From NCBI GenBank assembly GCA_947258875.1, contig CAMYKB010000026.1, positions 1 to 60,144 on the forward strand: a DNA stretch of 60,144 nucleotides. The letters run 5' to 3'. Under the pieces are notes generated by a model. That model was not told the DNA's origin and searched no databases. It saw nothing but the letters and a program-made list of their open reading frames with translations. Made by a program: the position numbers and the translations under genes. Positions 19,050-45,554 of this stretch are shown here, one piece after another; the stretch's first letter is position 1; every line of letters starts with the position of its first letter. The DNA comes from an uncultured Gammaproteobacteria bacterium (GTDB taxonomy: Bacteria; Pseudomonadota; Gammaproteobacteria; CAMYKB01).

Positions 19050-20162
19050 ATGACTCGCGGCACGCTTCTTAATCTGCCACATGCCGCCCTGGGTAGTCTA
19101 CTAGCTGTATTAAGACAACAGGGCTATAACTGCATTGGCCCTGTTGTTCGCGATGGCGCGATCGTTTATCGCAGAGTTCATCATGTGTCGGATCTGCCTT
19201 ATGGCTGGCATGATGAACAGATGCCGGGCACTTACCGGCTGGAGCGCAGCAACAGTCCACGCGCGTTTTCCTGGGCAGTTGGTCCAGAAGCCCTCAAGCC
19301 ACTCAACTTTGCGTCAGGCGAAACCTTATGGCGCGCCGAGCGAAATCATGAGGGACAGATCCAGTTCGAAGAAACCTTACCCGCAGCCCAACCGACAGCA
19401 GTTATCGGAGTACGCGCCTGTGACCTGGCGGCATTGCAGCTCCAGGATCAACATTTTCTTGACGGACCGTATCGTGACCCCTATTACGCCGCACGCCGTG
19501 AGCAATTGTTTCTGGTAGCAGTACACTGCACTCACCCGGCTGACACCTGCTTTTGCGCATCTACCGGTGATGGGCCTCAAGCCGAGTATGGTTTTGATAT
19601 TGAAATGTATGAATCGGAGGCGGGGTTCCTGGTGGCACCCGGCTCAGCCGCAGGCGAGGCCATTGTTGGTGAGCTACAGCTTAGTAAAAGTAACGATTCG
19701 CAACGTGCAATAGCTGAAGAGGAGGTTCGACAAGCAGCCAGGAAACAAACTCGCACCCTGCCCTCACAAAACCTTCGCGACAAACTGCTTGCAAGTCTGG
19801 ATCACCCCCATTGGCAGGAAGTGGCAAAGCGTTGTCTATCCTGTGGAAACTGTAGTTCGGTATGCCCAACCTGCTTCTGTCATACCGAGCATGACAACCC
19901 AGCGCTCGACGGGCGAACAACGGAACATGTCCGCGAATGGAGTTCCTGTTTTACGGCCGAGCATGGGGATATCAGTGGCAAGCCAATACGAGTGCAAACG
20001 CACTTACGATACCGCCAATGGCTGACTCACAAGTTGGGCAGTTGGCATGATCAATACGGTCGCAGTGGTTGTGTCGGCTGTGGGCGTTGTATCACCTGGT
20101 GCCCCGTAGGCATCGACATAACGAAAGAAGCGGCTGCAATCTACGAAGCGCAACTGTCATGA
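19050..20162 (+). CDS. hydB: Group 3b NiFe hydrogenase beta subunit (Fe-S)
   Basis: A 370-residue Fe-S protein of the HydB/AsrA type. The N-terminal region (about 1-250) includes RDGAIVYRRV and IGVRACDLAALQLQDQHFL, with a cysteine-containing HCTHPADTCFCAS segment. The C-terminal dicluster ferredoxin region has CLSCGNCSSVCPTCFC at about 263-278 and CVGCGRCITWCPVGID near 344-359. It relays electrons between the NiFe module and the flavin subunit HydG. It is the first gene of a tight operon hydB-G-D-A-protease. Its stop overlaps hydG by ATGA. Confidence 0.9.
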   Translation: MTRGTLLNLPHAALGSLLAVLRQQGYNCIGPVVRDGAIVYRRVHHVSDLPYGWHDEQMPGTYRLERSNSPRAFSWAVGPEALKPLNFASGETLWRAERNHEGQIQFEETLPAAQPTAVIGVRACDLAALQLQDQHFLDGPYRDPYYAARREQLFLVAVHCTHPADTCFCASTGDGPQAEYGFDIEMYESEAGFLVAPGSAAGEAIVGELQLSKSNDSQRAIAEEEVRQAARKQTRTLPSQNLRDKLLASLDHPHWQEVAKRCLSCGNCSSVCPTCFCHTEHDNPALDGRTTEHVREWSSCFTAEHGDISGKPIRVQTHLRYRQWLTHKLGSWHDQYGRSGCVGCGRCITWCPVGIDITKEAAAIYEAQLS

Positions 20163-20992
20163 ATAACCCATACTTGCCCTGGGAAGCTGAAGTTGTTGAA
20201 CGGGTTCAGGAATCCGCGTCGATTGTGACACTACGCATACGTTTTACCGATCCGGCAATACGTAGGCGCTACCGCTTTGATGTGGGCCAATTCAATATGG
20301 TCTATCTTTACGGTGTAGGCGAAATCCCAGTGTCTATTGTCTCCGATCCACAGGATGAACAACTGCTCGATCACATAGTACGCGCCATCGGCCGCGTGAC
20401 ACGCGCATTGGTAACACTAAAGCAAGGTGACCGACTGGGTATCCGTGGCCCCTATGGGCGCGGCTGGCCGTTGCATGAAGCCGTAGGTAAGGATGTGGTG
20501 TTAATAACAGGTGGACTGGGTTGTGCGCCCGTGATGTCGGTGATCAACTTCATCGTCAAGCGGCGTGAACATTTTGGCAAACTAACCATTCTGCAAGGTG
20601 TCAAGCATGCTAACGATCTCATCTGGCGAACACAGTATGAACGTTGGGCAATGTTACCAAACACACAGGTGCTCCTTGCCGCTGATGTGGCGGGACCACA
20701 ATGGCAATATCTTGTTGGCAAAGCCACCATATTACTTGATCGTGCAGTGCTTGATGCCACAAACAGCATCGCCATGATGTGCGGTCCGGAAATCATGATG
20801 CAGGCCTGCGTAACCGAATTACTGCAACGGGGTTTTAACCCCGAGAGCCTGTGGCTTAGTATGGAACGCAATATGCAGTGCGCCGTCAAGCACTGCGGTC
20901 ATTGCCAATACGGACCCCACTTCGTATGCCAAAACGGCCCGGTATTTCAGTATCCCGAGATCGATGAACTGTTTGGTCACAAGGGATTTTGA
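20159..20992 (+). CDS. hydG: Group 3b NiFe hydrogenase gamma subunit (FAD/NAD(P)-binding)
   Basis: A 277-residue ferredoxin-reductase-like subunit. The FAD domain has YRFDVGQFNMVYLYGVGEIPVS (in part) and GDRLGIRGPYGRGW. The NAD(P) domain begins at VVLITGGLGCAPVMSVINF. A C-terminal [2Fe-2S] site is built from the cysteines in NMQCAVKHCGHCQYGP and FVCQNG. It reduces NADP+ with electrons from H2, or the reverse. The ATG at 20159 overlaps the hydB stop; the frame is open upstream to 20069, but that part lies inside hydB and is not needed. The stop is two bases before the hydD ATG. Confidence 0.9.
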   Translation: MNNPYLPWEAEVVERVQESASIVTLRIRFTDPAIRRRYRFDVGQFNMVYLYGVGEIPVSIVSDPQDEQLLDHIVRAIGRVTRALVTLKQGDRLGIRGPYGRGWPLHEAVGKDVVLITGGLGCAPVMSVINFIVKRREHFGKLTILQGVKHANDLIWRTQYERWAMLPNTQVLLAADVAGPQWQYLVGKATILLDRAVLDATNSIAMMCGPEIMMQACVTELLQRGFNPESLWLSMERNMQCAVKHCGHCQYGPHFVCQNGPVFQYPEIDELFGHKGF

Positions 20993-20994
20993 GC

Positions 20995-21789
20995 ATGAAT
21001 ACTGAAATGGTCAAACCCCGGATTGCGGTACACAAATTCAGTTCCTGTGATGGCTGTCAGCTCGCCTTCCTGAATGCGGGTCCCGCGCTACTGGAGCTGG
21101 CAGAGCTGACTGATATCGTCTATTTCGCCGAAGCCGGATCACTGGAACGGGAGGTAGAGATCGATATTGCCTTTGTGGAAGGTAGCATTTCTACACCGCA
21201 AGACTTGACACGCATCAAAGCGATACGCGAGAACAGCGCATACCTGATCACAATCGGCGCCTGTGCCACTACGGGTGGACTGCAAGGACTGCGTAATCTA
21301 TATGCTTCCAATACCCGAGACTGGACCGGTGCAATCTATGCCCGACCGGAGTTTATCGAAACCCTGGATGAATCACAGCCGGTATCATCGCACGTAAAGG
21401 TTGATCTGGAACTCTGGGGTTGCCCTGTTAGCACACAGCAAATAATGACTGCGCTACGTGCCCTGTTATTTGGTGTGACACCCGGCGATGATCGAGACAA
21501 GATCTGCATGGAATGCAAACGCCGCCATAATGTGTGTGTATTGATTACCAAAGCTGCGCCCTGCATGGGCCCTGTCACACGCACCGGCTGCGGTGCTATC
21601 TGCCCGGCCTATGGCCGTGATTGTTACGCCTGTTACGGACCTGCTGAGAACATCAATGCCGAGGCATTGGCAACATGCTTCGAAGGCTTAGGCCTGCTGC
21701 CACAAGATATCGCACGCCGCTTCCATTTCATTAACTGTAACGCACCGAATTTTAAGCAAGCCGGCACCATCTGGCGGAATAAATCGTAG
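20995..21789 (+). CDS. hydD: Group 3b NiFe hydrogenase small (delta) subunit
   Basis: From ATG 20995 the product is 264 residues. The proximal-cluster motif SSCDGCQLAF has Cys 18 and 21. Further cluster ligands are seen in TIGACATTGGLQ, ELWGCPVS, ICMECKRRHNVCV and the C-rich CGAICPAYGRDCYACYGP. There is no Tat signal, as expected for a cytosolic group 3 enzyme. It carries electrons from the NiFe site to HydB/HydG. An earlier in-frame TTG at 20989 is less likely than the ATG. The gene lies between hydG and hydA in the family order. Confidence 0.9.
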   Translation: MNTEMVKPRIAVHKFSSCDGCQLAFLNAGPALLELAELTDIVYFAEAGSLEREVEIDIAFVEGSISTPQDLTRIKAIRENSAYLITIGACATTGGLQGLRNLYASNTRDWTGAIYARPEFIETLDESQPVSSHVKVDLELWGCPVSTQQIMTALRALLFGVTPGDDRDKICMECKRRHNVCVLITKAAPCMGPVTRTGCGAICPAYGRDCYACYGPAENINAEALATCFEGLGLLPQDIARRFHFINCNAPNFKQAGTIWRNKS

Positions 21790-21797
21790 ATATTGAT

Positions 21798-23093
21798 ATG
21801 CAAGAGAAACGTAACATCCATATCAAGGTTCCGGTCATGACCCGCGTGGAGGGGGAAGGCGCTCTAGAGATCACCGCCAGTGATGGTCATATACAAGACC
21901 TGCAATTACGTATTTTCGAGCCTCCGCGTTACTTTGAAAAATTCCTCGAAGGCCGCAGTTATCACGAAATACCCGATATTGTGGCACGCATCTGTGGTAT
22001 TTGTCCCGTGGCATATCAAGTGACCGCGGTGCAAGCTATTGAGAGCGCCTTCGGGTGTGACACCGGACCTTGGGTAAGAGAACTGCGACGGCTAATGTAT
22101 TGCGGCGAATGGATTCAGAGCCATGCTCTTCATATCCATTTGCTTGCGATGCCCGACTTTCTCGGCTATCCCAATGCCATCGCGATGGCGGCTGACTACC
22201 CGGAGGAGATTCGCAGGGGGCTGCATCTGCAAGCACTCGGTAACGATGTTATTAGTCTTTTAGGTGGTCGTTCGGTACACCCGGTAGGTGTTCGCCCTGG
22301 TGGTTTTCACTACGCGCCAGAATATGGTGAGACGGATGCGTTGCTGAAAAAATTGCGGGCAGCGGTATCAGATGCCGAAACCCTGGTGCGATGGACAGCA
22401 TCGTTGGACTTTCCCGATAGTGATCAAAATTTTGTTAGTGCTGCCTTGCAGCATCCCACTGAGTATCCTGTTCACGAAGGTCGTATTTGCTCGGATTCAG
22501 GCATTGATATTAACGTTACGGAATACGAACAATATTTCGTCGAGCATCAGGAGCCCCATTCTACTGCACTATATTCGTTACTCGACGGAAAACCCTATCT
22601 GCTAGGCCCACTTGCACGCATCAATCTTAATCATGCTCAACTCGATCAAACTCTTGACGTAGTGGCCGGTATCGCTGTGAACTTTCCAAGCCGCAATATG
22701 TTTCATAGCATTATCGCTCGTGCGATCGAGTTACACTACGCCCTCCATGAAGCGATAAAACTGCTGGAATCATACAGCTATCCTGATCAGCCCTACGTTG
22801 AAATCACGCCCTGTGAAAGTATAGGGATCGGTGCAACCGAGGCACCACGAGGCTTACTGTGGCATCGTTACGAGTTTGATGACAGTGGATGCATTGTTCA
22901 AGCGCGTATCGTCCCTCCCACCTCGCAGAATCAGGCACGCATCGAAGAAGATCTACATGATGCGATTGAAGCTTTTGGCTTTCATCATTCTGATGAAGCC
23001 ATTCGTTTACATGGTGAGATGGTGATCCGCAATTATGACCCCTGCATCTCATGCGCAACACATTTCCTCAACATCAAGATCAACCGAGAATGA
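21798..23093 (+). CDS. hydA: Group 3b NiFe hydrogenase large (alpha) subunit
   Basis: A 431-residue catalytic subunit. The N-terminal nickel ligands are in ARICGICPVAY (Cys 66, 69) and the C-terminal pair in DPCISCATHFL (Cys 416, 419). His 422 marks the expected processing site, leaving a 9-residue extension (FLNIKINRE) removed by the maturation protease. The start reads IKVPVMTRVEGEGALEI, typical of cytosolic group 3 enzymes. It should oxidise or evolve H2 with NADP(H); relatives also reduce sulfur. The stop overlaps the protease gene by ATGA. Confidence 0.95.
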   Translation: MQEKRNIHIKVPVMTRVEGEGALEITASDGHIQDLQLRIFEPPRYFEKFLEGRSYHEIPDIVARICGICPVAYQVTAVQAIESAFGCDTGPWVRELRRLMYCGEWIQSHALHIHLLAMPDFLGYPNAIAMAADYPEEIRRGLHLQALGNDVISLLGGRSVHPVGVRPGGFHYAPEYGETDALLKKLRAAVSDAETLVRWTASLDFPDSDQNFVSAALQHPTEYPVHEGRICSDSGIDINVTEYEQYFVEHQEPHSTALYSLLDGKPYLLGPLARINLNHAQLDQTLDVVAGIAVNFPSRNMFHSIIARAIELHYALHEAIKLLESYSYPDQPYVEITPCESIGIGATEAPRGLLWHRYEFDDSGCIVQARIVPPTSQNQARIEEDLHDAIEAFGFHHSDEAIRLHGEMVIRNYDPCISCATHFLNIKINRE

Positions 23094-23566
23094 GTGTGAT
23101 ACGTATCCTGGGTGTGGGATCACCTTATGGGGAGGATAGCCTTGGCTGGCGGGCTACACGGGCACTCGAAAATACGCAACTGGCAGAAATGCTTGCGCCA
23201 GACACTGTTGAGTATCGCTATCTGGATCGTCCCGGACCTACTCTGCTCAATGAACTTGAGGGCGCTATCCAGGTTGTGATAATTGATGCTATGCGCTCAG
23301 GAAATCCTCCTGGAACAGTACGGAAGCTCGAGCTGAGTGAGATTGAAACAGTGCTTGCACCCGTCTCCACACATGGTTATGACCTTGCCACCAGCATCGC
23401 GCTTGCCCGTTCGCTCGATCATATCCTCTGTGAATCTATCATTATAGGGATTGAGATGGGTTCATCACCAGACGATATCCCGGGAAACACAATGAAGCGA
23501 ATTCAGAGCGAGTTATTCCAGTTCATCGCGCGGGAAGTTCGAGAAACCAGGTCAGCCATAGGCTGA
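23090..23566 (+). CDS. Hydrogenase maturation protease (HycI/HyaD family)
   Basis: A 158-residue protein. It has the family start IRILGVGSPYGEDSLGWRA, with the first metal-ligand acid in the GEDSLG segment, the VVIIDAMRSGNPPGTV segment with the second acid, and STHGYDLATSIALA with the conserved His. It should cleave the C-terminal extension of HydA after nickel insertion. The ATG at 23090 overlaps the hydA stop by 4 bases. The stop codon is inside the terminator stem at 23545-23573. Confidence 0.9.
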   Translation: MSVIRILGVGSPYGEDSLGWRATRALENTQLAEMLAPDTVEYRYLDRPGPTLLNELEGAIQVVIIDAMRSGNPPGTVRKLELSEIETVLAPVSTHGYDLATSIALARSLDHILCESIIIGIEMGSSPDDIPGNTMKRIQSELFQFIAREVRETRSAIG

Positions 23567-33765: not shown

Positions 33766-34809
33766 TCAGCAGATTCGTGGTAAGGGGTCATCTTCCAGTT
33801 CGTCCAAGAAGCGTTCCCCTCCAAGATCGGTTTCGAGCACGACATGACAGCCTTCGTCTCTCTCAACTTTACCGATAATGGAAGCATCACTACCCTCAGG
33901 TAAGTCACGCCAGATAGCGAGCGCTTGATCAGCCTGTATGCTGTCAACAACTGCCACGACTCGCCCCTCACAGGCCAGATAATAAGGATCGTAGCCCAGC
34001 ATCTCACATACAGAGCGCACTTCGTCACGCACAGGAATAAGGGGTTCGAACAAACGCAGCACATGCTGCGCCGCATGTGCACATTCATGAGCCACAGTCG
34101 CCAAGCCACCACGCGTGGGATCACGCATGAACCGCAGTCCCGGCAGCTCACGCAATGCTCGAGTCAACGGCAAGACACTCGCAGCATCGGATTTCAGCTC
34201 ACCACGCAAGCCGAATTGCTCTCGCGCCAGCATTACAGCAATGCCATGATCACCCACAGTCCCGCTCACCAGAATACTGTCCCCAGGCCGGATCTGATCA
34301 AGACCAAGTTTTACGCCCTTAGGTTTGATACCAACACCCGTGGTTGCAAGGTAAATTCCGCCACCCTCACCACGCCGTAGTACCTTGGTATCACCTGCAG
34401 CAACCTGCACACCAACCTCATGTGCGGCGGCGGCAAGGGATGTGATGATACGTTCGAGTTGAGCAACCTCCATACCTTCTTCAATAAAAGCGTTAAGGCT
34501 CAGATAAAGTGGATCGGCGCCGGAGACGGCAAGATCATTAGTTGTACCATGTACGGCCAAGGAACCAATATTGCCACCCGGAAACTCCATAGGTTGCACG
34601 GTAAAACCGTCGGTCGTAAACATCAATTCAGTTTGACCCACTTGTAATGCGACTGCATCGGCCTGAACATCAAGCGCTGGACTTGCCAGCAGCGGCGCGA
34701 ACAGATCCTCGATCAATTCACGCATGTAACGCCCGCCATTACCGTGTGCCAGCGATATATGTGTGTCTTGTAGTAATCGCCTGGACTGCTTTGCGCTTGT
34801 GACGGACAT
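33766..34809 (-). CDS. hypE: Hydrogenase maturation factor HypE
   Basis: A 347-residue PurM-like ATPase that dehydrates the thiocarboxamide on its own C-terminal Cys to thiocyanate, the source of the NiFe cyanide ligands. The ATP-binding segments ISLAHGNGGRYMRELI and GGNIGSLAVHGTTNDLAVSGA are present, as is RDPTRGGLATVAHE. It ends PRIC, the required terminal Cys. It is last in the hypCABDFE operon, 22 bases after hypF. Confidence 0.95.
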   Translation of the reverse strand: MSVTSAKQSRRLLQDTHISLAHGNGGRYMRELIEDLFAPLLASPALDVQADAVALQVGQTELMFTTDGFTVQPMEFPGGNIGSLAVHGTTNDLAVSGADPLYLSLNAFIEEGMEVAQLERIITSLAAAAHEVGVQVAAGDTKVLRRGEGGGIYLATTGVGIKPKGVKLGLDQIRPGDSILVSGTVGDHGIAVMLAREQFGLRGELKSDAASVLPLTRALRELPGLRFMRDPTRGGLATVAHECAHAAQHVLRLFEPLIPVRDEVRSVCEMLGYDPYYLACEGRVVAVVDSIQADQALAIWRDLPEGSDASIIGKVERDEGCHVVLETDLGGERFLDELEDDPLPRIC

Positions 34810-34831
34810 CTTCTAACCTTTATCCCCAGTG

Positions 34832-37120
34832 TTATCGTTGAACGGCATATTCGACAACCTGCCCAAAGCTGATACCGCCGTCATTGTTGGGAATTTGCTC
34901 TGCGAGCTTGACCACGAAACCTTCCAGTGACAGTAGAGCGGCCGCCTGTTCGGTTAATAACCTGTTCTGGAATACTCCTCCCGTGAGACCAACCTGATTA
35001 ACACCGTGTTCCCTGCGCAGGTATTTCGCCTGTTCCACCAGCGCCTGTGCAAGGCTGGAGTGGAGGGTCGCTGCACGCATATCGGGGTAAATGCGTTCAT
35101 TCGCCAACCAGGCAACCAGTGGAGACCAGTCTGTGCGCAGCACACCACTGCCATCTTCTTGCAAGGGCAGCCTGACAACATCGCCCTGTTGTTCGTCAGC
35201 CAGGGCTTCGAGTTGCATCGGTCCCTGCCCTTCATAACTCGTGCTATGTTTGTGCATGATCAATGCTGTTGCTGCATCAAACAGGCGTCCTACCGCGGAG
35301 CTTTGCGGCGAATTGATGCGTTTTTCCCAGGCTTGTTTTATCAGGGTACTCTCTACAGGCGCCTCCCAGGGGTAATCAATCTCCCAACACAATGCGGCTG
35401 CACTACGCCAGGGTTCGCGGCCCGCCTTGTCTCCACCGGGCAAGTGAAACGGGCGTATGCTACCCACACGCTCCCATAACCCAGGCCGGCCCAGCAGGGT
35501 CTCACCACCCCAGAGTGTGCCATCCCTGCCATACCCGACACCGTCCCAGGCAAACACCAGCCAGTCAAATTCATTAACCGAAGCAGCATCGATATGTTCG
35601 CCGACCAGTGCCGATGCATGTGCCTCATGGTGGAAAACCTGACACATGCCCAGACCGCAGGACTTCGCCCAGGCGGTGGTGCGATAGCCCGGGTGCGCAT
35701 CGCAAACCACCCTTTCAGCTTTCACATCATAAAGGCGCTGTAAATCATCGAGCACTTGTTCAAATACCTTAAGGCTACGCGGTGCATCCATATCACCAAT
35801 GTGAGGTGAAATCACGACACGGTCATCCCAGGCCAGTGCGATGGTATTTTTTAAATGCCCCCCCACTGCAAGCACCGGTCGCTCGAGCGTTACCGGTAAA
35901 TTGAGTTCAACAGGCGCATTACCGCGTCCCAGTCGAATTGGCCGCAGCCGTCTGTTAATAGTGCGAAATACCGGGTCATCTGCAGGGCGTTCAATCACTC
36001 TGCTGTGATGCAGGCGTAGCCGTGTGACATGCGCAAGCCGTGTATCGACATCCTGATTATCAGTGAGTACCGGCTCTCCACTGATATTGGCAGAGGTCGC
36101 GACTAAAGGACCTGCGAAATCTGACAGCAATAAATGGTGCAGTGGACTATATGGCAGCATCACACCTACTTCTTCAAGCCCCGGCGCAATCAGCACTGAC
36201 AGGCTACAATTGGGTGCTTTGCGCGCCAGTACGATAGGCCGTAGAGGACTGGTAAGCAGGCGGACTTCATCAGGCTTTAGCAAAGCCTGGCTGGCAACGG
36301 CAGCAAGGCCATCTTCGCCAGCTAACGGAAACATCACTGCCAAAGGTTTGTCGGGACGTGGTTTAGTAGCTCGCAGTCGTGCAATCGCAACATCATTATG
36401 CGCATCACACATCAGGTGATAACCACCGATACCTTTAACGGCGACGATTTCACCTTTACGCAAGGCTATTATGCAGGCTGACAATGCCTTATTAGTCTGC
36501 GTGATATTCACACCATCAGACATCACAAAAGTGAGTTGTGGTCCACACTCAGGACAGGCAATCGGTTCAGCGTGGAAGCGGCGGTTCAGCGGGTTTTCAT
36601 ACTCACGCGTGCAATTGCTGCACAGGGGAAAACCCGCCATCGTGGTATTAGGCCGGTCATAGGGTAATGATTTGATTAATGTGTAGCGCGGCCCGCATTG
36701 CGTGCAATTGATAAAGGGATACCGATAACGCCTGTCGTCAGGATGCATTAATTCTTCGAGGCACTGATCACACAGAGCATAATCTGGGGGCACCTCAATA
36801 TGGGATTGCTGTCCGCTGCAACTGGACTCAATGATAAATTCACTCAAACCCTTGCTATCGACCGTGACACAGTTATCGATAACCGGTTTGGCGATTTGCG
36901 GCGCATCATGAATCAGCGCCGTGCCAAATGCGTCAAGTGTAGCGGGCTTGCCTTCTGCAGAGACCTCCACCCTGCCGAGTTGATTCTGCACCGATCCTGA
37001 AACACCATATTGACACGCCAGGCGGTAAACAAATGGCCGAAAACCAACGCCTTGAACATGACCGGAGATCAACCAGCGGCGAGCCTCTATCGTCTGCCTT
37101 ATATTTGAAGACGGGTTCAT
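34832..37120 (-). CDS. hypF: Carbamoyltransferase HypF
   Basis: A 762-residue protein from ATG 37120 (an upstream open extension lies within hypD and is rejected). Domains in order are acylphosphatase (WLISGHVQGVGFRPFVYRLA), two zinc fingers of CxxC-N18-CxxC type (CDQC, CTQC, CSNC, CPEC), YrdC-like (KGEIVAVKGIGGYHLMCDA) and Kae1-like carbamoyltransferase (VVCDAHPGYRTT, VGLTGGVFQN). It activates carbamoyl phosphate and loads HypE. Length is normal. It starts 4 bases after the hypD stop. Confidence 0.95.
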   Translation of the reverse strand: MNPSSNIRQTIEARRWLISGHVQGVGFRPFVYRLACQYGVSGSVQNQLGRVEVSAEGKPATLDAFGTALIHDAPQIAKPVIDNCVTVDSKGLSEFIIESSCSGQQSHIEVPPDYALCDQCLEELMHPDDRRYRYPFINCTQCGPRYTLIKSLPYDRPNTTMAGFPLCSNCTREYENPLNRRFHAEPIACPECGPQLTFVMSDGVNITQTNKALSACIIALRKGEIVAVKGIGGYHLMCDAHNDVAIARLRATKPRPDKPLAVMFPLAGEDGLAAVASQALLKPDEVRLLTSPLRPIVLARKAPNCSLSVLIAPGLEEVGVMLPYSPLHHLLLSDFAGPLVATSANISGEPVLTDNQDVDTRLAHVTRLRLHHSRVIERPADDPVFRTINRRLRPIRLGRGNAPVELNLPVTLERPVLAVGGHLKNTIALAWDDRVVISPHIGDMDAPRSLKVFEQVLDDLQRLYDVKAERVVCDAHPGYRTTAWAKSCGLGMCQVFHHEAHASALVGEHIDAASVNEFDWLVFAWDGVGYGRDGTLWGGETLLGRPGLWERVGSIRPFHLPGGDKAGREPWRSAAALCWEIDYPWEAPVESTLIKQAWEKRINSPQSSAVGRLFDAATALIMHKHSTSYEGQGPMQLEALADEQQGDVVRLPLQEDGSGVLRTDWSPLVAWLANERIYPDMRAATLHSSLAQALVEQAKYLRREHGVNQVGLTGGVFQNRLLTEQAAALLSLEGFVVKLAEQIPNNDGGISFGQVVEYAVQR

Positions 37121-37124
37121 CAAC

Positions 37125-38240
37125 TTACCATTCTGCCACCTGTGACACAGCACGTTCGCGCACTCCTCCAGCCCACCATATCCTGCAAGCGCCTTCATCC
37201 GAAACCATGCACGGCCCTATAGGGTTACGCGGTGTGCAGGCGTTACCATAAATACGGCACTCGTTAGGATAAACCTTGCCGAGCACTACACGTGCACAAT
37301 CACACCCTTGCGGCATTTGTCCTACCCGCTTACGATCAGCATCAGCATAACTCGGTAATTGCTTACGGGCATCATGGGCAGCCAGCGAGTCCTTCAAGGC
37401 ATAACCGGAGGCAGGAATAATACCGACACCTCGCCAGTTGGCATCGACAACGTTCATGGTTTCCTTGAGCTGTGCCTGCGCCGTTTTATTACCACCGGGT
37501 TTAACCACTTCTGAATAACAATTATTGAGGAAGCGCAGTCCGTCCAGTAGTTGCCGCAACGTGGAGTACATGGCGGCAAGTAATGATTCGGGAGTGAAGC
37601 CGGCAACCGCAGCCGGCATCTGGTGTTTATCGATAACAAATTGCCACTCCTCAGGACCCATGACCGTAGACACATGGCCTGGTGCAATAAGGGCATCGAA
37701 ACCAGCCGTCTCGGATTCCAACAACATGGCGACAGCCGGCCATGTGAGGCGCCCTGAGAGCAGGATTAACAAATTGTCCGGTACACCCTCGACCAGCATG
37801 GCAGCAACAGGTGCCGTAGTGGTTTCAAAACCGGCCGCGAAAAACACTACCGTGCGGTCAGGGTTAGCATCAGCTATGCGTATCGCCTCTGTAGGCGATG
37901 CGATTGGCCTGATATCGGCACCGGCTGCCTTGGCCTGTTGCAGGGAACGGATTTCGCGATGAGGCAAATTAACGGGAACCCGCAGCATGTCGCCGAAGGC
38001 CACCAGGATGACGTCTTCCTTTAGCGCCAGCTGCATGGCTTCATACACATCTTCTTCAGGGCAGATACACACGGGACAACCGGGGCCCGGAATCAATTCG
38101 ATTTGTAGTGGTAAGGCGCCACGTAAACCAGCCATAGTGATCGAACGTTCATGCCCGCCGCAGACATTCATGATACGAACCTTTTCCGGTAACTCCAGGT
38201 CCCGTATCTTCTGCAACCATTGTCTGGCGCTAAGCGGCAT
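37125..38240 (-). CDS. hypD: Hydrogenase formation protein HypD
   Basis: A 371-residue [4Fe-4S] scaffold protein. Conserved motifs are MNVCGGHERSI, PGPGCPVCICPE, FAAGFETTTAP and APGHVSTVMGPEEW. A C-terminal cysteine set is in GQMPQGCDCARVV and NECRIYGNACTPRNP. With HypC it assembles the Fe(CN)2CO unit of the NiFe site. It begins 13 bases after the hypB stop. Confidence 0.95.
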   Translation of the reverse strand: MPLSARQWLQKIRDLELPEKVRIMNVCGGHERSITMAGLRGALPLQIELIPGPGCPVCICPEEDVYEAMQLALKEDVILVAFGDMLRVPVNLPHREIRSLQQAKAAGADIRPIASPTEAIRIADANPDRTVVFFAAGFETTTAPVAAMLVEGVPDNLLILLSGRLTWPAVAMLLESETAGFDALIAPGHVSTVMGPEEWQFVIDKHQMPAAVAGFTPESLLAAMYSTLRQLLDGLRFLNNCYSEVVKPGGNKTAQAQLKETMNVVDANWRGVGIIPASGYALKDSLAAHDARKQLPSYADADRKRVGQMPQGCDCARVVLGKVYPNECRIYGNACTPRNPIGPCMVSDEGACRIWWAGGVRERAVSQVAEW

Positions 38241-38253
38241 GACGAGTTACCTG

Positions 38254-39102
38254 TCAGCCGTGAGAATGTTTAACATGTTGATGTGAATGCGAAACATGGA
38301 GCCGCGCGTCCTCGGGTTGTATCGTGGGCCGTTGTGTTTCACCAGCAGTGACCCGCTGACGTTGCTTTTCAATTTCGATATCCAGCCAAGCCAACCAGGT
38401 ATCCAGTCCATCTGCAGTAGTGGACGACACTGAACACAGTGGCGCATCACTGGCCAGGTGGCGCAGATAACCTTCAGCACGCTGCGGGTCGAAGCCTTGT
38501 AAATAAGGCAGCAGGTCGGTCTTGGTAATCATTACCAGATCCGCCGCACGAAATATGACGGGATATTTGGCAGGTTTGTCATCACCTTCCGGTACGGAAA
38601 GTAACGTGACATTAAGGTGCTGCCCCAGATCGAAACTGGCCGGGCACACCAGATTACCAACGTTCTCTATGAATAGGATATCAAGGCCATCAAGGCTCAT
38701 ATGATGCAGCGTGTTGTGCACCATGTGTGCATCCAGGTGACAGGCGCTGCCGGTGGTTATCTGTACTGCTTCTATACCTTTGGCGCGGATACGCTCGGCA
38801 TCGTTCTCAGTTTCGAGATCACCCTCTATTACTGCAATGGAATATTGATCGTGTAGGGCGTCAACTGTGGCCTCAAGCAACGCTGTTTTACCTGCACCGG
38901 GCGAAGACATGAGGTTAATTGCCAGGACGCCATGTGTATCAAAATGACTGCGATTGTGTGCGGCCTGATGATCGTTCTCACTCAGCAGATTTTGCAAAAC
39001 CTCGACACTTTCACGCCCGCTGCGGGTATAGGCATGCTTGCCTTCAGCAGTGACCAGATGTGCATTGCCAGGAGTTATATTACAGCCACAAGTGTCACAC
39101 AT
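38254..39102 (-). CDS. hypB: Nickel-inserting GTPase HypB with C-terminal His-rich tail
   Basis: From ATG 39102 (AGGAG Shine-Dalgarno, 282 residues). It begins MCDTCGCN, the high-affinity CxxCGC nickel site. The G-domain has P-loop NLMSSPGAGKTALLE, metal-site residues in the ACHLDAHMV segment, and NKxD-like TKTD. The protein ends with a His-rich tail, RLHVSHSHQHVKHSHG (six His). Many HypB proteins carry a His stretch near the N-terminus; here it is at the C-terminus. It delivers nickel with HypA, encoded 46 bases upstream. Confidence 0.93.
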   Translation of the reverse strand: MCDTCGCNITPGNAHLVTAEGKHAYTRSGRESVEVLQNLLSENDHQAAHNRSHFDTHGVLAINLMSSPGAGKTALLEATVDALHDQYSIAVIEGDLETENDAERIRAKGIEAVQITTGSACHLDAHMVHNTLHHMSLDGLDILFIENVGNLVCPASFDLGQHLNVTLLSVPEGDDKPAKYPVIFRAADLVMITKTDLLPYLQGFDPQRAEGYLRHLASDAPLCSVSSTTADGLDTWLAWLDIEIEKQRQRVTAGETQRPTIQPEDARLHVSHSHQHVKHSHG

Positions 39103-39148
39103 GTTCTTTCTCCTGAACCTTGTAGACAACTAACCAAGGAAGCTCTGA

Positions 39149-39493
39149 TTAATGTATCAACTCGAGACTTGCCAGCAGCAACTCGTCACCACTGATGAGT
39201 TGCGCATGCCAGTCACCACATTTCCCGCAGACCAGCCTGTTCGCAGCTGCCTCGGTCTCAGCACCACATCGCTTACAGCGCACGCGTATCGGCAGCTCTT
39301 CAATCACCAGTTCTGCGCCATCAGCCAGCGTGCCGAGGCTAGCCACCGTATAGGCCTGCCGCAGTAACTGGCTCTCGACGCCGGACAAAGCTCCGATTTG
39401 CAAATATACTTTTTCGATACCACAGGCTTGATACTCGGTGGCCACATTTTCGATCTGTGAGATCAACGCATGACATATCGAAAGCTCGTGCAT
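39149..39493 (-). CDS. hypA: Hydrogenase nickel chaperone HypA
   Basis: A 114-residue protein. It starts MHELSICHALI (nickel-binding MHE). The zinc site uses two CxxC pairs, in RVRCKRCGAET and RLVCGKCGDWH. It passes nickel to the hydrogenase large subunit with HypB. It lies 9 bases after the hypC stop. The extra CGDWH feature is normal for the family. Confidence 0.95.
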   Translation of the reverse strand: MHELSICHALISQIENVATEYQACGIEKVYLQIGALSGVESQLLRQAYTVASLGTLADGAELVIEELPIRVRCKRCGAETEAAANRLVCGKCGDWHAQLISGDELLLASLELIH

Positions 39494-39502
39494 TAGTGTT
39501 TC

Positions 39503-39745
39503 TCAGATGGCTGCTACGGCGGCATCAGCAGCCAGCATCTCGTCATAAATTTCCCATGCGCTGCTGGCTTCTTGCGGGGTAACCTTCTGGATGGCATAAC
39601 CGACATGCACCATCACATAATCACCGGCTTCAACAGGGTCATCCTGCAACATAAACAAACTCACATCCCGCTCGATGCCCTTGGCCACACATCGGGCATT
39701 GAATCCATCGATGGCTGTAATCTGCATGGGGATAGCCAGGCACAT
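39503..39745 (-). CDS. hypC: Hydrogenase assembly chaperone HypC
   Basis: An 80-residue protein from ATG 39745. It begins MCLAIPMQI; removal of Met exposes Cys 2, which holds the iron unit with HypD. The signature GDYVMVHVGYAIQKV is present. The frame is open upstream to 39811, but that extension would bury Cys 2 and is rejected. It is the first gene of hypCABDFE, about 41 bases after the predicted transcription start at 39786. Confidence 0.95.
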   Translation of the reverse strand: MCLAIPMQITAIDGFNARCVAKGIERDVSLFMLQDDPVEAGDYVMVHVGYAIQKVTPQEASSAWEIYDEMLAADAAVAAI

Positions 39746-39792
39746 AAGATTTCGTTTCACACCTTTCAATAATCGCCTTGATGACGGCACCC

Positions 39793-39862
39793 ATTTAAGT
39801 ACATGATCCATAATGAATAATTGACTTGGATCAAGGGTTATTGCGTCAAAATGGTCTTAAAT
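39793..39862. promoter_or_regulatory. Symmetric divergent FNR promoter (hyp operon and small membrane protein)
   Basis: The box TTGAC-TTGG-ATCAA (39821-39834) matches the FNR consensus at 9 of 10 bases. A minus-10 TTAAAT is found at 39857-39862 on the plus strand, and an identical TTAAAT at 39798-39793 on the minus strand. Each lies the same distance from the box. Class II starts (box centre at minus 41.5) would fall at 39869 and 39786. Both flanking transcription units should be induced when oxygen is low. Confidence 0.75.
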
Positions 39863-39916
39863 TCGGCCCATGACAGTGAAAGCATGTTAAATCACCACCG
39901 GACTGGAGGAATCAAG

Positions 39917-40120
39917 GTGAAGATGAAATTATTCGCACTATTTACGCTAATTGTGGCGCATGTAGCGTTCGGTGCCGCCGCACAGGCACATGGCCTGGGG
40001 CATTCAAGCTCTTTCAGTGGCGTGATGCATTTCTCCCATCATGGCGTTGAGCTGATTATGTTTATCATGACCGTGGTGATGGGTATCCTGCTTATGCAGC
40101 TCCGCAGAAAAAAACCATAG
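39917..40120 (+). CDS. Small His-rich membrane protein divergent from hyp operon
   Basis: I do not recognise this as a named family. From GTG 39917 (GGAGG Shine-Dalgarno 7 bases upstream) it is 67 residues; ATG 39923 is an alternative start. A signal-like helix (LFALFTLIVAHVAFGAAAQA) is followed by a His-containing stretch (HGLGHSS, MHFSHHGVE), one transmembrane helix (LIMFIMTVVMGILLMQL) and a basic tail RRKKP. The His-X-His layout before a helix faintly recalls the first part of HupE/UreJ nickel/cobalt permeases, but only one such helix is present. The shared FNR promoter suggests a role in hydrogenase metal supply or assembly. Confidence 0.7.
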   Translation: MKMKLFALFTLIVAHVAFGAAAQAHGLGHSSSFSGVMHFSHHGVELIMFIMTVVMGILLMQLRRKKP

Positions 40121-40129
40121 AGGGTCTCT

Positions 40130-40165
40130 ACCAGGCACCCTACCCGACGGGTACAGGGTCCTGGT
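40130..40165. terminator. Bidirectional terminator hairpin overlapping fieF end
   Basis: ACCAGG-C-ACCCT (40130-40141) pairs with AGGGT-CCTGGT (40155-40165), with an inner CCCG/CGGG stem. It lies between the convergent small membrane protein gene and the exporter gene and includes the exporter stop codon. An A-run just before it supplies a U-tract for minus-strand transcripts. Confidence 0.65.
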
Positions 40166-41027
40166 GAATTATGACATCGGCCGTAGGATAAATTTCTTTG
40201 ATAGCCGCTTCGACTTCATCGCTAATGACATGGGCATTATGTAATGCCGTGTTCTCATCAATTTCCAAATGCAACTGAATAAACTGTGTTTGACCCGACT
40301 GTCGCGTACGTAGCTCATGGATGCCATGAACCTCCTTGTGTGAGCAGGCAATATCGCAAATATTTTTCTCTATCTCCGGCGCCAATTGCCGATCCAACAG
40401 CATTTGGACCGCTTCGTGCCCGATATGCCAGGCGTGATAGAGGATATAAACAGCAATGCACATACCGAATACCGGGTCAAACCCGTGTTTGCCAAATGCG
40501 GCAAGCAATAGCGCAATAATGATACTGATATTAACCAACACGTCCGTTGTGTAATGTAATGAATCAGCCTTGATAGCAAGCGAACCCGTACGCTTGATGA
40601 CATGCCGTTGAATCAATAACAAGCCCAGTGTCATGATGGTGGAGAACACCATGACAACTATACTGACAGTAATCCCATGCAATGGCGTTGGATGTAACAA
40701 GCGCTCGACGGCATGCAGCATTAGAAAAATGGCTGAACCTGCGATGAAAGTGGATTGCCCAAGCCCCGCCAGCGATTCAGCCTTGCCATGGCCGAAACGA
40801 TGCTCCTCGTCGGCCGGCATCAGAGAATAGCGCACCGCCAAAAGGTTGATGACAGAGGCCACCACATCCATAAGCGAGTCGACAAACGATGCAAGCACAC
40901 TTACTGAACCACTCAATAACCAGGCGAAAAGTTTGAATGCGATCAGCAGGCTCGCTGTTGCCACAGAGGCAAAAGTCGCCAAGCGTAACAGTTTGGCAGT
41001 TTCGGTCTCGCTGACTACGGGTTTCAT
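40140..41027 (-). CDS. Cation diffusion facilitator exporter (FieF/YiiP-like)
   Basis: A 295-residue CDF protein. Six transmembrane helices fill about 15-205, with the metal-site pattern DSLMD (helix 2) and HYTTD (helix 5, from DSLHYTTDVLVN). The motif RFGHGKAESLAGLGQS marks the loop after helix 2. The cytoplasmic C-terminal domain (about 210-290) has HGIHELRTRQSG and HLEIDEN. It exports divalent metals such as Zn or Fe by proton antiport; specificity is not certain. It faces the hyp region. Confidence 0.85.
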   Translation of the reverse strand: MKPVVSETETAKLLRLATFASVATASLLIAFKLFAWLLSGSVSVLASFVDSLMDVVASVINLLAVRYSLMPADEEHRFGHGKAESLAGLGQSTFIAGSAIFLMLHAVERLLHPTPLHGITVSIVVMVFSTIMTLGLLLIQRHVIKRTGSLAIKADSLHYTTDVLVNISIIIALLLAAFGKHGFDPVFGMCIAVYILYHAWHIGHEAVQMLLDRQLAPEIEKNICDIACSHKEVHGIHELRTRQSGQTQFIQLHLEIDENTALHNAHVISDEVEAAIKEIYPTADVIIHQDPVPVG

Positions 41028-41234
41028 ATAGGTTGATGTGTGATGCCTGAGTCCAGCTATGGTATCAAACCCAGCTCAACAATCATTACTGCGGGTCATA
41101 GCGATTCGCAACAAATGTTGTATAATTATTAGCAATGCAATATTTGATATAGCATTAATACTATTAATACAAGAACCATGAAATGATAATACACACGCAA
41201 TTACCCCTTACTAGAGCCACTGGTTAGCCAATCA

Positions 41235-42323
41235 ATGCCTGAAAACTCGCCAGAGATTATGTCAACAACAGTCGACAGCGCCGCGATTGAACTTGATGCA
41301 TCACAAATGGTAGCTGCACAGTCTCTACAACAACTCGCCGGCAGGTTGGAACAGCAACAAAGCATGCTTCAACGCCTAGGTACACTGCTGACGAACCGGG
41401 AGAACACACCGAGCCAAGGCGTGTATCTCTGGGGCGGTGTCGGCCGCGGCAAGACACTGCTCATGGACCGTTTTTATAATGAATTGTCCGTTGGAAAAAA
41501 GATACGCACCCACTTTCACCGCTTGATGCATGCCGTGCACAATGAGCTCAAGAGCTTCAAACATGAGAAAAATCCGTTACAGGCCGTTGCAAAACAATTT
41601 GCTACCCGCTACCGGATCATCTGCCTGGATGAATTTCATGCACTGGATATTGGCGACGCAATGATACTATCGGGCCTGCTAAATAGCCTGTTCGCCGAGG
41701 GCACTGCACTGGTTACGACCTCGAACAGACACCCTGATGATCTCTATAAAAACGGCTTGCAACGCGCCCGCTTCCTGCCTGCGATCGATTTGATAAAACA
41801 ATCGATGCAAGTCGTTGAAGTCGATGCTGGCATTGACTACCGCTTGCGTGCATTGAGTACAACACAGGTTTATAACACGCCCCTAGGCGACGCAAGCGAA
41901 GCCGTTCTGCAGACGGCATTCGATCGCCTCGTGGGTGCTGCCGGCAGCACACAGCAAGGCATTAAGATTCAGGGGCGTATTATCGATACCCGGCAACATG
42001 CAGATGAAGTGGTATGGTTTGAGTTTGCGGATATCTGTGGCGGGCCACGCAGCACCAACGACTACATTGAGGTTGCGCGGTGTTACAATACCGTGCTGAT
42101 TTCAAACATTCCGGTAATGGAAAACCGTGATGACGAGGCGCGCCGCTTTATCAATCTCATCGATGAGCTCTATGATCGCCGCGTCAAACTATTCGTCTCG
42201 GCAGCAGCGCCTATGGATACGCTCTACCGCGGCAAGCGACTGGTGTTTCAGTTTAATCGCACCACCAGCCGACTGCATGAAATGCAAACACGGGAGTATC
42301 TGGCGGAAGAACACCGCCCCTGA
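41235..42323 (+). CDS. zapE: AFG1-family cell-division ATPase ZapE
   Basis: A 362-residue AAA-like ATPase. Walker A is [15 protein letters not shown] (about 64-78), Walker B is [16 protein letters not shown] (about 127-142), and sensor-1 is [12 protein letters not shown]. The C-terminal part has [18 protein letters not shown] and [16 protein letters not shown]. In E. coli, ZapE acts on the Z ring under low oxygen or stress. No strong Shine-Dalgarno precedes ATG 41235, so ATG 41259 remains a possible start. mdh follows 65 bases later. Confidence 0.9.
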
Positions 42324-42388
42324 ATGGCGACTCAACGACAATAGCGAGCCATCCATCTATTAATCAATTATCAAACCTGGAGTTCGAC

Positions 42389-43366
42389 ATGAAACAAGCT
42401 CTACGGGTCACGATTACCGGCGCTGCGGGCAATATTGGTTATGCCCTCGCCTTTCGCATTGCTGCTGGCGATATGTTGGGACCAGATCAACCAGTCATCC
42501 TGCAACTTCTCGAGATTGAACCGGCGCTTGCAGCGCTTGAAGGTGTTGTTATGGAACTTAATGATTGCGCCTTTCCCTTGCTGACTGACATCGTTGCAAC
42601 AACTGACCTTACGACTGGTTTCAAGGATACTGACTATGCATTGCTGGTCGGCTCCCGCCCCCGCGGGCCAGGTATGGAGCGCAAGGACCTGCTGAGTGCC
42701 AACGGCGCGATCTTCGCACCGCAAGGTAAAGCGATTAATGACCATGCCTCAAAAGATATCAAGGTACTGATTGTCGGCAACCCAGCTAACACCAATGCCC
42801 TGATCGCAGCCGAAAATGCACCGGATCTGGATTCGCGTCAATTCACCTCCATGATGCGGCTCGATCATAATCGCGCCATCAGTCAGATCGCCGAAGAAAC
42901 CGGCGCTCACGTCAACGACGTGAAAAAGATGATCGTGTGGGGAAACCATTCATCCACCCAGTACCCGGATATCAGCCAGTGTGTCGTTAGAGGTAAGCCC
43001 GCGGCAGAATTAGTTGAACAGAAGTGGTATCGGAATGACTTCATTCCCACCGTACAGCAACGTGGCGCTGCAATTATCAAGGCACGCGGCGCCTCTTCGG
43101 CTGCTTCAGCAGCTTCAGCAGCCATTGACCATATGCGCAGCTGGGCGCTGGGAACAGCCAAAGGCGACTGGGCCAGTATGGGCATCCCCTCTGACGGGAG
43201 TTATGGCATCGCCGAAGGCATCATGTATTCCTACCCCGTGACCTGCAAAAACGGCAAGTACGAAATCGTGCAAGACCTGGAGATCGACGAGTTCAGCCGC
43301 GAACGCATGCAAGCCACCGAACAGGAGTTACGCGAAGAACGTGCCGCGGTAGAAGATTTATTGTAA
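42389..43366 (+). CDS. mdh: Malate dehydrogenase
   Basis: A 325-residue cytosolic-type malate dehydrogenase. The NAD loop is [17 protein letters not shown] (about 9-25). Substrate-binding Arg residues lie in [13 protein letters not shown], and the active-site segment [14 protein letters not shown] and catalytic His in [11 protein letters not shown] are present. It interconverts malate and oxaloacetate with NAD(H) in the TCA cycle. A GGAG Shine-Dalgarno precedes the ATG. Confidence 0.95.
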
Positions 43367-43407
43367 CCGCAGTATGGGCTACACATTTCTATCCGAACGC
43401 TATCATC

Positions 43408-43510
43408 GTTCCCGCGTATACCTACTTGAAAGCAAACCGTAGGCGACGCTTTCCTATAGGGATATAGGCGCAGGAGCAGTTACCGAGGAAGCTAAAGCTG
43501 AGACGGGAAC
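43408..43510. repeat. 103-base unit with terminal inverted repeats
   Basis: GTTCCCG (43408-43414) and CGGGAAC (43504-43510) bound the unit. Inside is a CCTATA-GGGA-TATAGG hairpin (43453-43468). It could be a small non-autonomous element or a folded RNA 3-prime end of mdh. No second copy is seen in the window. Confidence 0.35.
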
Positions 43511-43533
43511 CCTGTAATATATAGTGCTTTTCT

Positions 43534-43564
43534 CTGTATCCCCCCGCCTGCGCGGGGATGACAG
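43534..43564 (-). repeat. Extragenic palindrome, copy A (reverse orientation)
   Basis: Read on the minus strand it gives CTGTCATCCCCGCGCAGGCG and continues into GGGGGATACAG. It is the same GTCAT-CCCGCG-AGGCGGG design as copies at 43718-43737 and 50840-50859. Together with copy B it forms a head-to-head pair about 155 bases apart. Confidence 0.65.
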
Positions 43565-43717
43565 ATAAGATACGCCATCCTCATTACTCTACAGAAGAGT
43601 GAGAACCAGAATATCTTCATAAGATGGGCAGCGTAGCGTAACCCATCGTGACTTGATCAAATGTAAGCTGGCGAACAGCCAGCTATCGCCAAACCCACTC
43701 TCCTAGTTCTCGCCGTC

Positions 43718-43737
43718 ATACCCGCGCAGGCGGGTAT
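43718..43737 (+). repeat. Extragenic palindrome, copy B
   Basis: ATACCCGC-GCAG-GCGGGTAT is a perfect 8-bp hairpin with a 4-base loop, preceded by GTC and followed by CCAGT. The arm changes (ATACCCGC here, ATTCCCGC at 50840) are matched on both sides, so pairing is conserved. The design is widespread in gammaproteobacterial genomes. Confidence 0.7.
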
Positions 43738-43896
43738 CCAGTCAAAAAAATGTTTCCTTACTCTCTGAATCTCCGTTTACCACAGGGCTGACGACCTTCG
43801 TAGGGGGTAAAGCGCAGAAACCCGGCATGACATTATCAAACATGGGCTGCTGGGCCACGGGTGAACTCCTAAGCTACCCTGTTAATGTCTCCCCAT

Positions 43897-45417
43897 CTAC
43901 CATTCCACTTGCATCTGAAACTGCTCCCGCAATACATTCTTCTGCACTTTTCCCATGCTGTTACGCGGCAATTCATCAACAATAAACACGCGCTTGGCAA
44001 CTTTATAGTTCGCCAATGACTGTTTTAGTGAACCAATAATATCCTGCTCGGCCAATTCAGCTGAATTTTCAAGCACAACAATGGCAACCACCGCTTCACC
44101 AAAGTCAGGATGTGGTAGACCAATTACCGCAGACTCATTCACTCCATCGAGATCATCAATGCACGACTCCACTTCTTTAGGATAAACGTTATAACCGCCG
44201 CATATCACCATATCTTTCGAGCGTCCAACGATGGAAATGTAACCGTTATCGGGATTACATTTGGCAATATCGCCGGTCTTGAAAAAACCATCATCGGTAA
44301 AATCTTCGGCAGTTTTTTCCGGCATTTGCCAATAGCCTTTAAAAACGTTTTTTCCTTTAACCTGTAACTGCCCCACGCTACCGTCAGTTATCTGTTCACC
44401 ATGTTCATCAATAATGCGCGCTTCGACACCGGGTAACGGCAAACCCACTGTACCCGGCAAGCGTTCTCCATTAAGCGGATTTGAAGTATTCATGCCGGTT
44501 TCCGTCATGCCATAGCGTTCCAGGATGGTATGGCCGGTACGTTCATTAAATTCCTCGAAGGTCTGTTCGAGTAGCGGCGCCGAACCGGAAATAAACAAAC
44601 GCATATTGCGGCAGCTAACTTTGTTGAAACCGGGATCGGCCAGCAACCGTGTATAGAAAGTCGGCACACCCATGAAGACTGTAGATTCAGGTAATAAGCG
44701 AATCACATCAGCGCTATTAAATGTTGGCAGGAAAAACATCTTGCTGCCGTTCAACAAGGCACAATGACAGGCCACAAACAGCCCATGCACATGAAAAATC
44801 GGCAAGGCATGCAGTAACACATCACCCTCCCGCCAACCCCAGTAGGCATGCAGCGCTAGTGCGTTTTCAGCCAGATTCTCGTGTGTGAGCATGGCGCCCT
44901 TGGGCAGGCCTGTGGTACCAGAGGTATAAAGAATTGCGGCAACATCATGAGGAGCGCATTTCTCTGTTTTGAAATTCGGCTCTGTACCCTCTATTGCATC
45001 GACAAAACTGCCGCTGCCATCGGCCTTCAGAGTGTAGAGTTTATCGATACCTGATTTCCTAGAAAGTTCTTTTAAGACTTTGTAATTACTTGAATTACAT
45101 ATGACAGCAGCCGGCTCAGCATTATCCAGGAAATATGCCAGCTCGCGCGCCTGATAAGCAGTGTTTAGCGGCAAATAGATGAATCCCGCACGCAGACAGG
45201 CCAGGTATAAAAATAGTGCCTGTGGTGATTTATCAACCTGTACTACAACACGGTCGCCTTTGCAGATACCGACACCGGTTAAAAAACGAGCATAACGTGC
45301 TGATTCTTGCCCCACTTCCTTGAAGCTGTAACGCCGTGCCGCAAACGTTTCGATACAACATTGACTGTCATCTTGAGAAAAGCGTTTCTCAAATAGCGTA
45401 TAAAGATTGGCGTTCAT
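43897..45417 (-). CDS. matB: Malonyl-CoA synthetase (acyl-CoA ligase)
   Basis: A 506-residue ANL-superfamily ligase from ATG 45417. It has the P-loop ILYTSGTTGLPKGAMLTHEN, HALPIFHVHGL, ERYGMTETGMN, TGDIAK and the catalytic Lys in PRNSMGKVQKN. It converts malonate, ATP and CoA to malonyl-CoA. Assignment to malonate rests on overall likeness to MatB and on neighbours: a divergent FCD-GntR regulator, a C4-type TRAP system and malonyl-CoA decarboxylase. The frame is open 14 codons further upstream. Confidence 0.88.
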   Translation of the reverse strand: MNANLYTLFEKRFSQDDSQCCIETFAARRYSFKEVGQESARYARFLTGVGICKGDRVVVQVDKSPQALFLYLACLRAGFIYLPLNTAYQARELAYFLDNAEPAAVICNSSNYKVLKELSRKSGIDKLYTLKADGSGSFVDAIEGTEPNFKTEKCAPHDVAAILYTSGTTGLPKGAMLTHENLAENALALHAYWGWREGDVLLHALPIFHVHGLFVACHCALLNGSKMFFLPTFNSADVIRLLPESTVFMGVPTFYTRLLADPGFNKVSCRNMRLFISGSAPLLEQTFEEFNERTGHTILERYGMTETGMNTSNPLNGERLPGTVGLPLPGVEARIIDEHGEQITDGSVGQLQVKGKNVFKGYWQMPEKTAEDFTDDGFFKTGDIAKCNPDNGYISIVGRSKDMVICGGYNVYPKEVESCIDDLDGVNESAVIGLPHPDFGEAVVAIVVLENSAELAEQDIIGSLKQSLANYKVAKRVFIVDELPRNSMGKVQKNVLREQFQMQVEW

Positions 45418-45485
45418 TAGATTTCTATTAAATAAGCGTGATCTTATGCAGCTTGACAAAGTTCTGGGCCGTTACTATAACCGAT

Positions 45486-45503
45486 AATTCATAATTATAA
45501 ATT
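45486..45503. promoter_or_regulatory. Candidate MatR operator
   Basis: AATTCATAATTATAAATT is an 18-base palindrome with a single mismatched pair. It lies between matB and matR, about 68 bases from each start, an expected place for a GntR-family dimer. It is AT-rich and might overlap minus-10 elements of one or both promoters. Confidence 0.45.
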
Positions 45504-45554
45504 CAAAATTACAAGGCTGAATGTGTATAGCAGCTAAACAGGATTTTTCCAGGC

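Follow-up and report, generated by a model that had tools for sequence, protein, structure and literature searches.

The open reading frame at positions 39917-40120 of the window (the whole stretch of 60,144 nucleotides that was analysed) is a real gene, with an intact frame, a Shine-Dalgarno sequence and coding statistics to match. Its 67-residue product probably belongs to a family of small exported proteins, here called minis, that resemble the first part of HupE nickel permeases. As a diverged mini, the protein is somewhat more likely than not a membrane-anchored periplasmic accessory for nickel capture, a single-helix offshoot of the HupE module.

The gene, its product and its surroundings

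The gene starts with GTG at 39917, has an in-frame ATG at 39923, and its stop codon ends at 40120; the first-pass annotation had placed the frame correctly. Its codon usage scores 0.265 bits per codon (trained on 20 long window genes), which is about the median of 480 windows taken from the same 20 training genes, and 0.7% of the false-frame windows (n = 2,400) reach this score. The features of the gene and of its neighbours are collected in Table 1.

Table 1. Features of the window gene and its surroundings
Feature	Position	Strand	Basis
Mini-HupE-like gene, 67 aa	39917..40120	+	Top match of the 21-member family profile among 895 window ORFs
Shine-Dalgarno sequence GGAGG	39905..39909	+	Sequence; 7 nt 5' of GTG
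Signal peptide (predicted), codons 1-24, ending in AQA	39917..39988	+	Sequence pattern
Mature N-terminal segment HGLGHSSSFSGVMHFSHH with His1, His5 and short helix	39989..40042	+	Family alignments; AlphaFold helix 32-41
Single membrane helix, codons 43-64, into basic tail	40043..40108	+	AlphaFold model
FNR-type box TTGACTTGGATCAA, between hypC and the mini gene	39821..39834	.	9/10 match to TTGAYN4ATCAA
hypC, divergent neighbour	39503..39745	-	Pfam PF01455 match at 39548-39745; MCLAIP start
hypA, hypB, hypD, hypF, hypE	33766..39493	-	Named from sequence
CDF cation exporter gene, convergent neighbour	40140..41027	-	Pfam PF01545 and PF16916
[NiFe] hydrogenase genes and protease	19050..23566	+	Large subunit by Pfam

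The protein runs from a signal helix ending in AQA through HGLGH...H..HH and one hydrophobic helix to LRRKKP, and five of its six histidines lie beyond the predicted cleavage site AQA^H. AlphaFold2 (mean pLDDT 75, pTM 0.39) gave helices at residues 2-24, 32-41 and 43-64, so that the structure prediction of the protein alone, which had been proposed at first pass, yielded one long helix (43-64) after the signal peptide. The layout described there (signal-like helix, His-containing stretch, one membrane helix, basic tail) is seen in the sequence and holds at the level of the family.

The hyp genes follow the order hypCABDFE on the minus strand, and the hydrogenase encoded at 19050-23566 is presumably of group 3b type, its subgroup and its genes other than that of the large subunit having been assigned from sequence and gene order. 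A gap of 19 bp separates the end of the CDF gene from the end of the window gene. The start of hypC (39745) and that of the window gene share an intergenic region of 171 bp. Sites of the TTGAYN4ATCAA type occur twice in the window versus 0.42 expected, and two or more were found in 12 of 100 shuffles; a box matching at 9 or more of 10 positions lies 5' of hypC in 9 of 38 regions (the window included), compared with 17 of 1,520 random segments from the same loci. A scan of 39400-40400 returned neither a sigma-70-like site nor a terminator, and Rfam at the gathering threshold had no match in 30000-46000. Since no sigma-70-like site was found, the promoter that had been taken to be shared with hypC is restated here as an intergenic region that both genes share and that holds a likely FNR-type site.

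A family of small HupE-like proteins

Direct searches found no close homologue of the window protein. At E <= 10 no Pfam family matched it, and NCBIfam gave two weak matches, to KefB (16.2 bits versus a cut-off of 804) and to the N-terminal part of CzcI (NF045614; 10.7 bits, E 0.63, below the curated cut-off of 100 bits). No relative of the 67-residue protein was found in a collection of genome contigs, and in 56 plus 369 related genomes nothing besides the protein itself fell below E 0.001, most matches being in long frames. Within the genome of the window (G000), both PF04955 (E <= 1) and a 25-member profile of the minis found the full HupE and not the window gene; the result with the profile covers 16 of 31 first-look candidates. 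Because these searches gave no family, relatives were sought by gene position near hypC.

hypC was present in 108 of 274 genomes of the class (138 matches), and in 100 surrounding regions small ORFs were sought that encode two hydrophobic segments separated by a stretch with histidines. One region (L080, genome G043), a hydrogenase-hyp cluster like that of the window, held a 67-residue ORF on the divergent side of hypC; the sequence of this ORF is that of a HupE start. A phmmer search with this ORF returned four more minis (G222, G136, G101 and G124) together with full HupE genes, and the resulting five-member profile added ten from 369 genomes, five of them directly 3' of a [NiFe] large-subunit gene (G218, G318, G074, G300 and G272) and five by Ni-SOD (L234, L235 and L240) or urease genes (L236 and L242). 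A regular-expression scan of the loci was rejected, most of its matches being false, and a 75-residue ORF after hynL in Methylovirgula was judged not to be a mini.

Judged from their sequences, the minis are a fast-evolving family of 52-91 residues with one common layout. The first residue of the mature protein is His in 44 of the 44 collected minis, a count that is partly a product of the selection criteria, and a second His follows within eight residues in 43 of 44. The histidine conservation by which the earlier proposal was to be judged is thus present at these two positions, but the motif HX5DH is missing from some members and from the window protein.

Against a profile of 21 minis that left the window protein out, the latter had an E-value of 4.9e-6, the next window ORF reaching 1.9. 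A score of 32.5 bits for the window protein was equalled by 4 of 3,000 strict shuffles, in which signal peptide, His1, tail and segment composition were kept, and by 18 of 3,000 shuffles when the mature parts only were compared; hhalign of the window protein with the mini family gave a probability of 83 and E 9e-6. An earlier ten-member model had given it 21.8 bits, versus 13.4-55.6 for true members left out singly, and shuffles of increasing freedom reached that score in 26, 2 and 0 of 2,000 cases. With a broader model of 44 members it was still ranked first (E 8e-5) and 354 of 5,000 strict shuffles reached its score, so that membership is not proven beyond the layout. The window protein also has the AQA^HGLGH pattern (cleavage predicted), with -3/-1 residues similar to those of family members and His at +1 as in these, and its gene lies 171 bp from hypC. 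Its assignment follows from the match to the minis and not from its own weak match to HupE.

That relationship to HupE is clearest for the family as a whole: hhalign aligned the minis (20 members) with HupE (13 members) at a probability of 97 and E 3.6e-11, over 45 columns (4-48 on 6-50, signal peptides included), whereas the window protein versus HupE gave a weak probability of 18. The likeness to the first part of HupE/UreJ that had been pointed out at first pass is accordingly upheld for the family and weak for the protein itself. Pfam HupE_UreJ (PF04955) matched 7 of 25 minis at E <= 0.01, and two minis were seen over its cut-off, in L231 (profile positions 2-53 of 179) and in G043 (2-44). 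HupE/UreJ proteins and minis alike have a signal peptide, a mature N-terminal His and a short helix before the first transmembrane helix (TM1), and both occupy the same slot after hynL; HupE frames, however, comprise about 176-204 residues with several helices, whereas minis end after TM1. In a modelled HupE (pLDDT 87.5; helices 45-61, 65-86, 93-109, 116-136 and 144-170) a short helix at 34-43 carries His40 and the next begins at Asp46-His47, and the spacing of 34-43 then 45-61 corresponds in the predicted models to 32-41 then 43-64 in the window protein.

HX5DH at the mouth of TM1, which we take to be a HupE motif, is conserved in the HupE alignment examined. The window protein keeps His1, His5 and His38, reads HFSHHGVEL where HupE has HP..G.DHLL, and is without the DH of HX5DH and any later HupE motif. 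By eye, urease-linked minis read H[NS]HSGIEYF at the position of the HupE DH, so that the DH-less variant in the window is not unique. With no significant PF04955 match, no full set of permease helices and no HX5DH, the window protein is not a member of HupE; it is a single-helix variant of the HupE N-terminal module.

Other systems invite comparison. CbiN, NikL and CbtB are small membrane accessories in nickel/cobalt uptake and presumably differ from the minis in topology and in the placement of histidines. DUF6732 (PF20506, function unknown), with a model of 72 positions, matched 4 of 25 minis at E <= 0.01 (best 6.6e-6), and 4 of ten minis scanned singly, all below the cut-off; it did not match the window protein at Pfam E <= 10, and it is not named in the open-licence literature searched. 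The accessible part of one article describes N-terminal-His 'anglerase' domains on HupE/UreJ-2 that are proposed to fish for metal (PMC12537917). Like the minis they have a mature N-terminal His, which in their case lies next to a HupE-type permease; unlike them, they comprise about 175-180 residues and are fused to PF13795 permeases. That part of the article describes a copper-bound anglerase protein and holds no nickel result.

Positions beside genes for nickel enzymes

The 25-member profile was run against 369 genomes of the class (frames of up to 120 residues, E <= 0.01) and gave 26 small-frame matches, 24 of which adjoin nickel genes: 12 lie by [NiFe] hydrogenase or hyp genes, 9 by urease or urease accessory genes and 3 by Ni-SOD genes. 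Five of these 24 had first been found near hyp genes and 19 came from the profile. Of the other two matches, that in G157 is interrupted by stops and has no nickel genes nearby, and that in G076, near a contig end, was left out of the neighbour check. Most neighbours were named from sequence motifs; Pfam confirmed two Ni-SODs (Sod_Ni, in L234 and L240, the third in L235 being named by motif) and two ureases (Urease_alpha, in L236 and L242). Several urease-linked minis stand in the order urtE-mini-ureD; for those of G304 and G239, which are linked to urease accessory genes, the structural urease genes lie on a separate contig.

A sample of 378 genomes of the phylum (E <= 0.001) added 16 small-frame matches, of which 15 were examined (that of G699 was left out). 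Eight of the 15 were beside nickel genes, six no farther than about 3.5 kb from urease genes (G525 contributing two of these) and two at the ends of hyp operons; the remainder comprise five from one genus that follow tatC, a single one near a CbiX-like gene and another without any metal gene nearby.

Three of these arrangements may be recorded separately. In five genomes of genus g346 (L431-L435, near 6870-7290) the mini is directly 3' of tatC (named by motif); a match to the NiFe large subunit occurs elsewhere in all five of these genomes, and a urease match in none. Locus L442 of G525 has its two minis at 6558-6740 and 9882-10088, about 3 kb apart, one directly beside ureG and the other parted from it by other genes. 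The mini at L443:5688-5897 adjoins a gene that, from its start motif, is presumably CbiX-like (cobalt chelatase), which suggests cobalt as well as nickel.

Among 18 mini-bearing genomes checked, a NiFe large subunit was absent from six (G138, G044, G304, G662, G453 and G674). Five of the six carry urease, and G138, the one genome of the 18 with neither a large-subunit nor a urease match, has Ni-SOD beside its mini. The tie to NiFe maturation supposed in the first-pass annotation is therefore too narrow as it stood, and it survives as a tie to nickel enzymes generally; the profile and neighbour check it had suggested does find minis often near hydrogenase or hyp genes, and near urease and Ni-SOD genes too. 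In G184, which carries urease and has a urease-linked mini, the large-subunit match is a fragment: a 92-residue frame (C1:1069845-1070063) that covers the NiFe model at positions 436-508 and nowhere else.

Loci with hynL were collected by searching with six aligned HynL proteins, and the best 80 of at least 577 matching stretches were used; from their isp1-isp2 order we take them to be group-1e-like. In these best 80 loci the slot after hynL is filled 16 times by a full HupE, 12 times by a mini and twice by a NicO permease, and in the other 50 no HupE, mini or NicO was present in the slot among the matches listed; some loci, e.g. L324 and L344, keep fewer than 200 bases past hynL. The two NicO-family nickel permeases lie at L334:3209-4012 and L336:11089-11991. 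A scan of the slot that dropped the His criterion returned nine small signal-plus-membrane ORFs, all of them minis with His after the signal peptide, and missed 3 of the 12 minis.

Mini carriers among the hynL loci include Thiohalophilus thiocyanatoxydans (L340), Thiothrix lacustris (L302) and the Solemya velum symbiont (L278). Minis of 71 residues also lie between hynL and hypC on a plasmid of Alteromonas macleodii EZ55 (WP_012516859.1, annotated as hypothetical) and on a Glaciecola plasmid (AEE25409, annotated as 'MmpL4 protein'). The EZ55 ORF, with its AHPGHQGDH start, is like the window protein in layout and has the slot after hynL in common with other minis; unlike the window gene, it is part of an operon of structural genes. 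In the accessible part of PMC3102683, the genes listed for the Alteromonas expression operon include no such ORF; the list is for strain AltDE, whereas the ORF itself was seen in EZ55, a different strain. The Alteromonas Orf2, which is reported to be required if HynSL is to reach maximal activity in E. coli (PMC3102683), was rejected as the mini, as it sits before hynD in that list.

Proposed role and alternatives

Hydrogenase, urease and presumably Ni-SOD need nickel to be moved across the inner membrane. In the proposed role, removal of the signal peptide would leave one His as the first residue and another as the fifth, and the single membrane helix would anchor the mature protein with its basic end in the cytoplasm. 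The exposed His1 and His5, together with the histidines at the mouth of the helix, may then capture Ni(II), perhaps also Co(II), on the periplasmic side and could pass it to a permease (full HupE, NicO or another), from which nickel would reach cytoplasmic HypA/HypB or, elsewhere, urease accessory proteins. As one helix alone forms no channel and the exported His-first segment resembles part of a permease, the protein is best read as an accessory for capture or loading. With PF04955, G043 and G222 yielded the mini alone and G101 no match at all; since none of the three shows a full HupE by this model, no fixed partner can be named. The notion of a metal-binding accessory, voiced at first pass, is favoured at family level by the likeness to the HupE module and by the positions near nickel genes; the match of the window protein itself to HupE is weak. 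Against the proposed role count the lack of a close homologue, the broad-model shuffles, the missing DH pair and the phylum minis that lie by tatC, by the CbiX-like gene or by no metal gene. More tentatively, the stand-alone HupE 'fishing' module could be a general nickel-capture subunit in hydrogenase, urease and Ni-SOD operons, working with any permease, with the window copy serving the hyp machinery.

A historical explanation is possible if rather doubtful: a group-1e-like operon was lost up to hynL, leaving the mini beside hypC, where it is decaying or has been kept for general nickel supply. An ancestral-type order, with hypC divergent from protease-hupH-hynS-isp1-isp2-hynL-mini, is seen in G136 (L146), and hypC is on the opposite strand upstream in 35 of the best 80 hynL loci, many of which are without upstream sequence. 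In G043 (L080:6641-7441) a HycI-type protease, a hupH-like fragment and the mini remain beside hypC, and in its congener G183 (L131:7000-7500) all three are gone, an apparent stepwise loss of the operon. Given how common this order is, and the losses in G043 and G183, the pair in the window could be a remnant of such a loss. G000 fits this in that no group-1e-like operon was found in it, its only other large subunit belonging to a HybOABC-like set on contig C27 that has its own full HupE, and in that the window copy is without DH. However, the intact frame, normal codon usage, Shine-Dalgarno sequence and FNR-type box all remain, and the intact frame and signals suggest that the gene may still be in use; in G222, G679 and G566 a mini immediately follows hyp genes without an adjoining large subunit, and G000 is an assembly of 67 contigs with 98.5% completeness.

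It is unlikely that the likeness to the minis is convergent and the protein a small secreted membrane protein, rich in His and of unrelated origin, that lies next to hypC by chance: the shuffles that reach its score under the broad 44-member model, the lack of any Pfam family at E <= 10 and the weak match to HupE would allow this, but the statistics of the narrow model (E 4.9e-6; 4 of 3,000 shuffles), the HupE-like helix spacing and the position beside hypC argue against it. A helper of the CDF exporter in metal efflux, which the adjacent end of the CDF gene and the weak CzcI match (E 0.63) might evoke, is very improbable, as the two genes are convergent and not co-transcribed and in L080 a KefB-like exchanger, not a CDF protein, is encoded beyond the mini.

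In the open-licence literature searched, judged by titles and the first lines of abstracts, no paper surfaced on such a small protein with HupE, hydrogenase, urease or Ni-SOD. The path of nickel from the periplasm to HypA/HypB or to the urease accessory proteins, and its separation from other metals, are only partly understood. Minis beside hydrogenase, urease and Ni-SOD genes point to an overlooked part in bacterial nickel handling, and the proteins are easily overlooked, as their labels in the two plasmid records illustrate. If the proposed role is true, a small exported His-first protein encoded next to nickel enzymes of three unrelated kinds would supply a missing accessory and a short, testable metal site, and the mini may matter for the heterologous production of hydrogenase.
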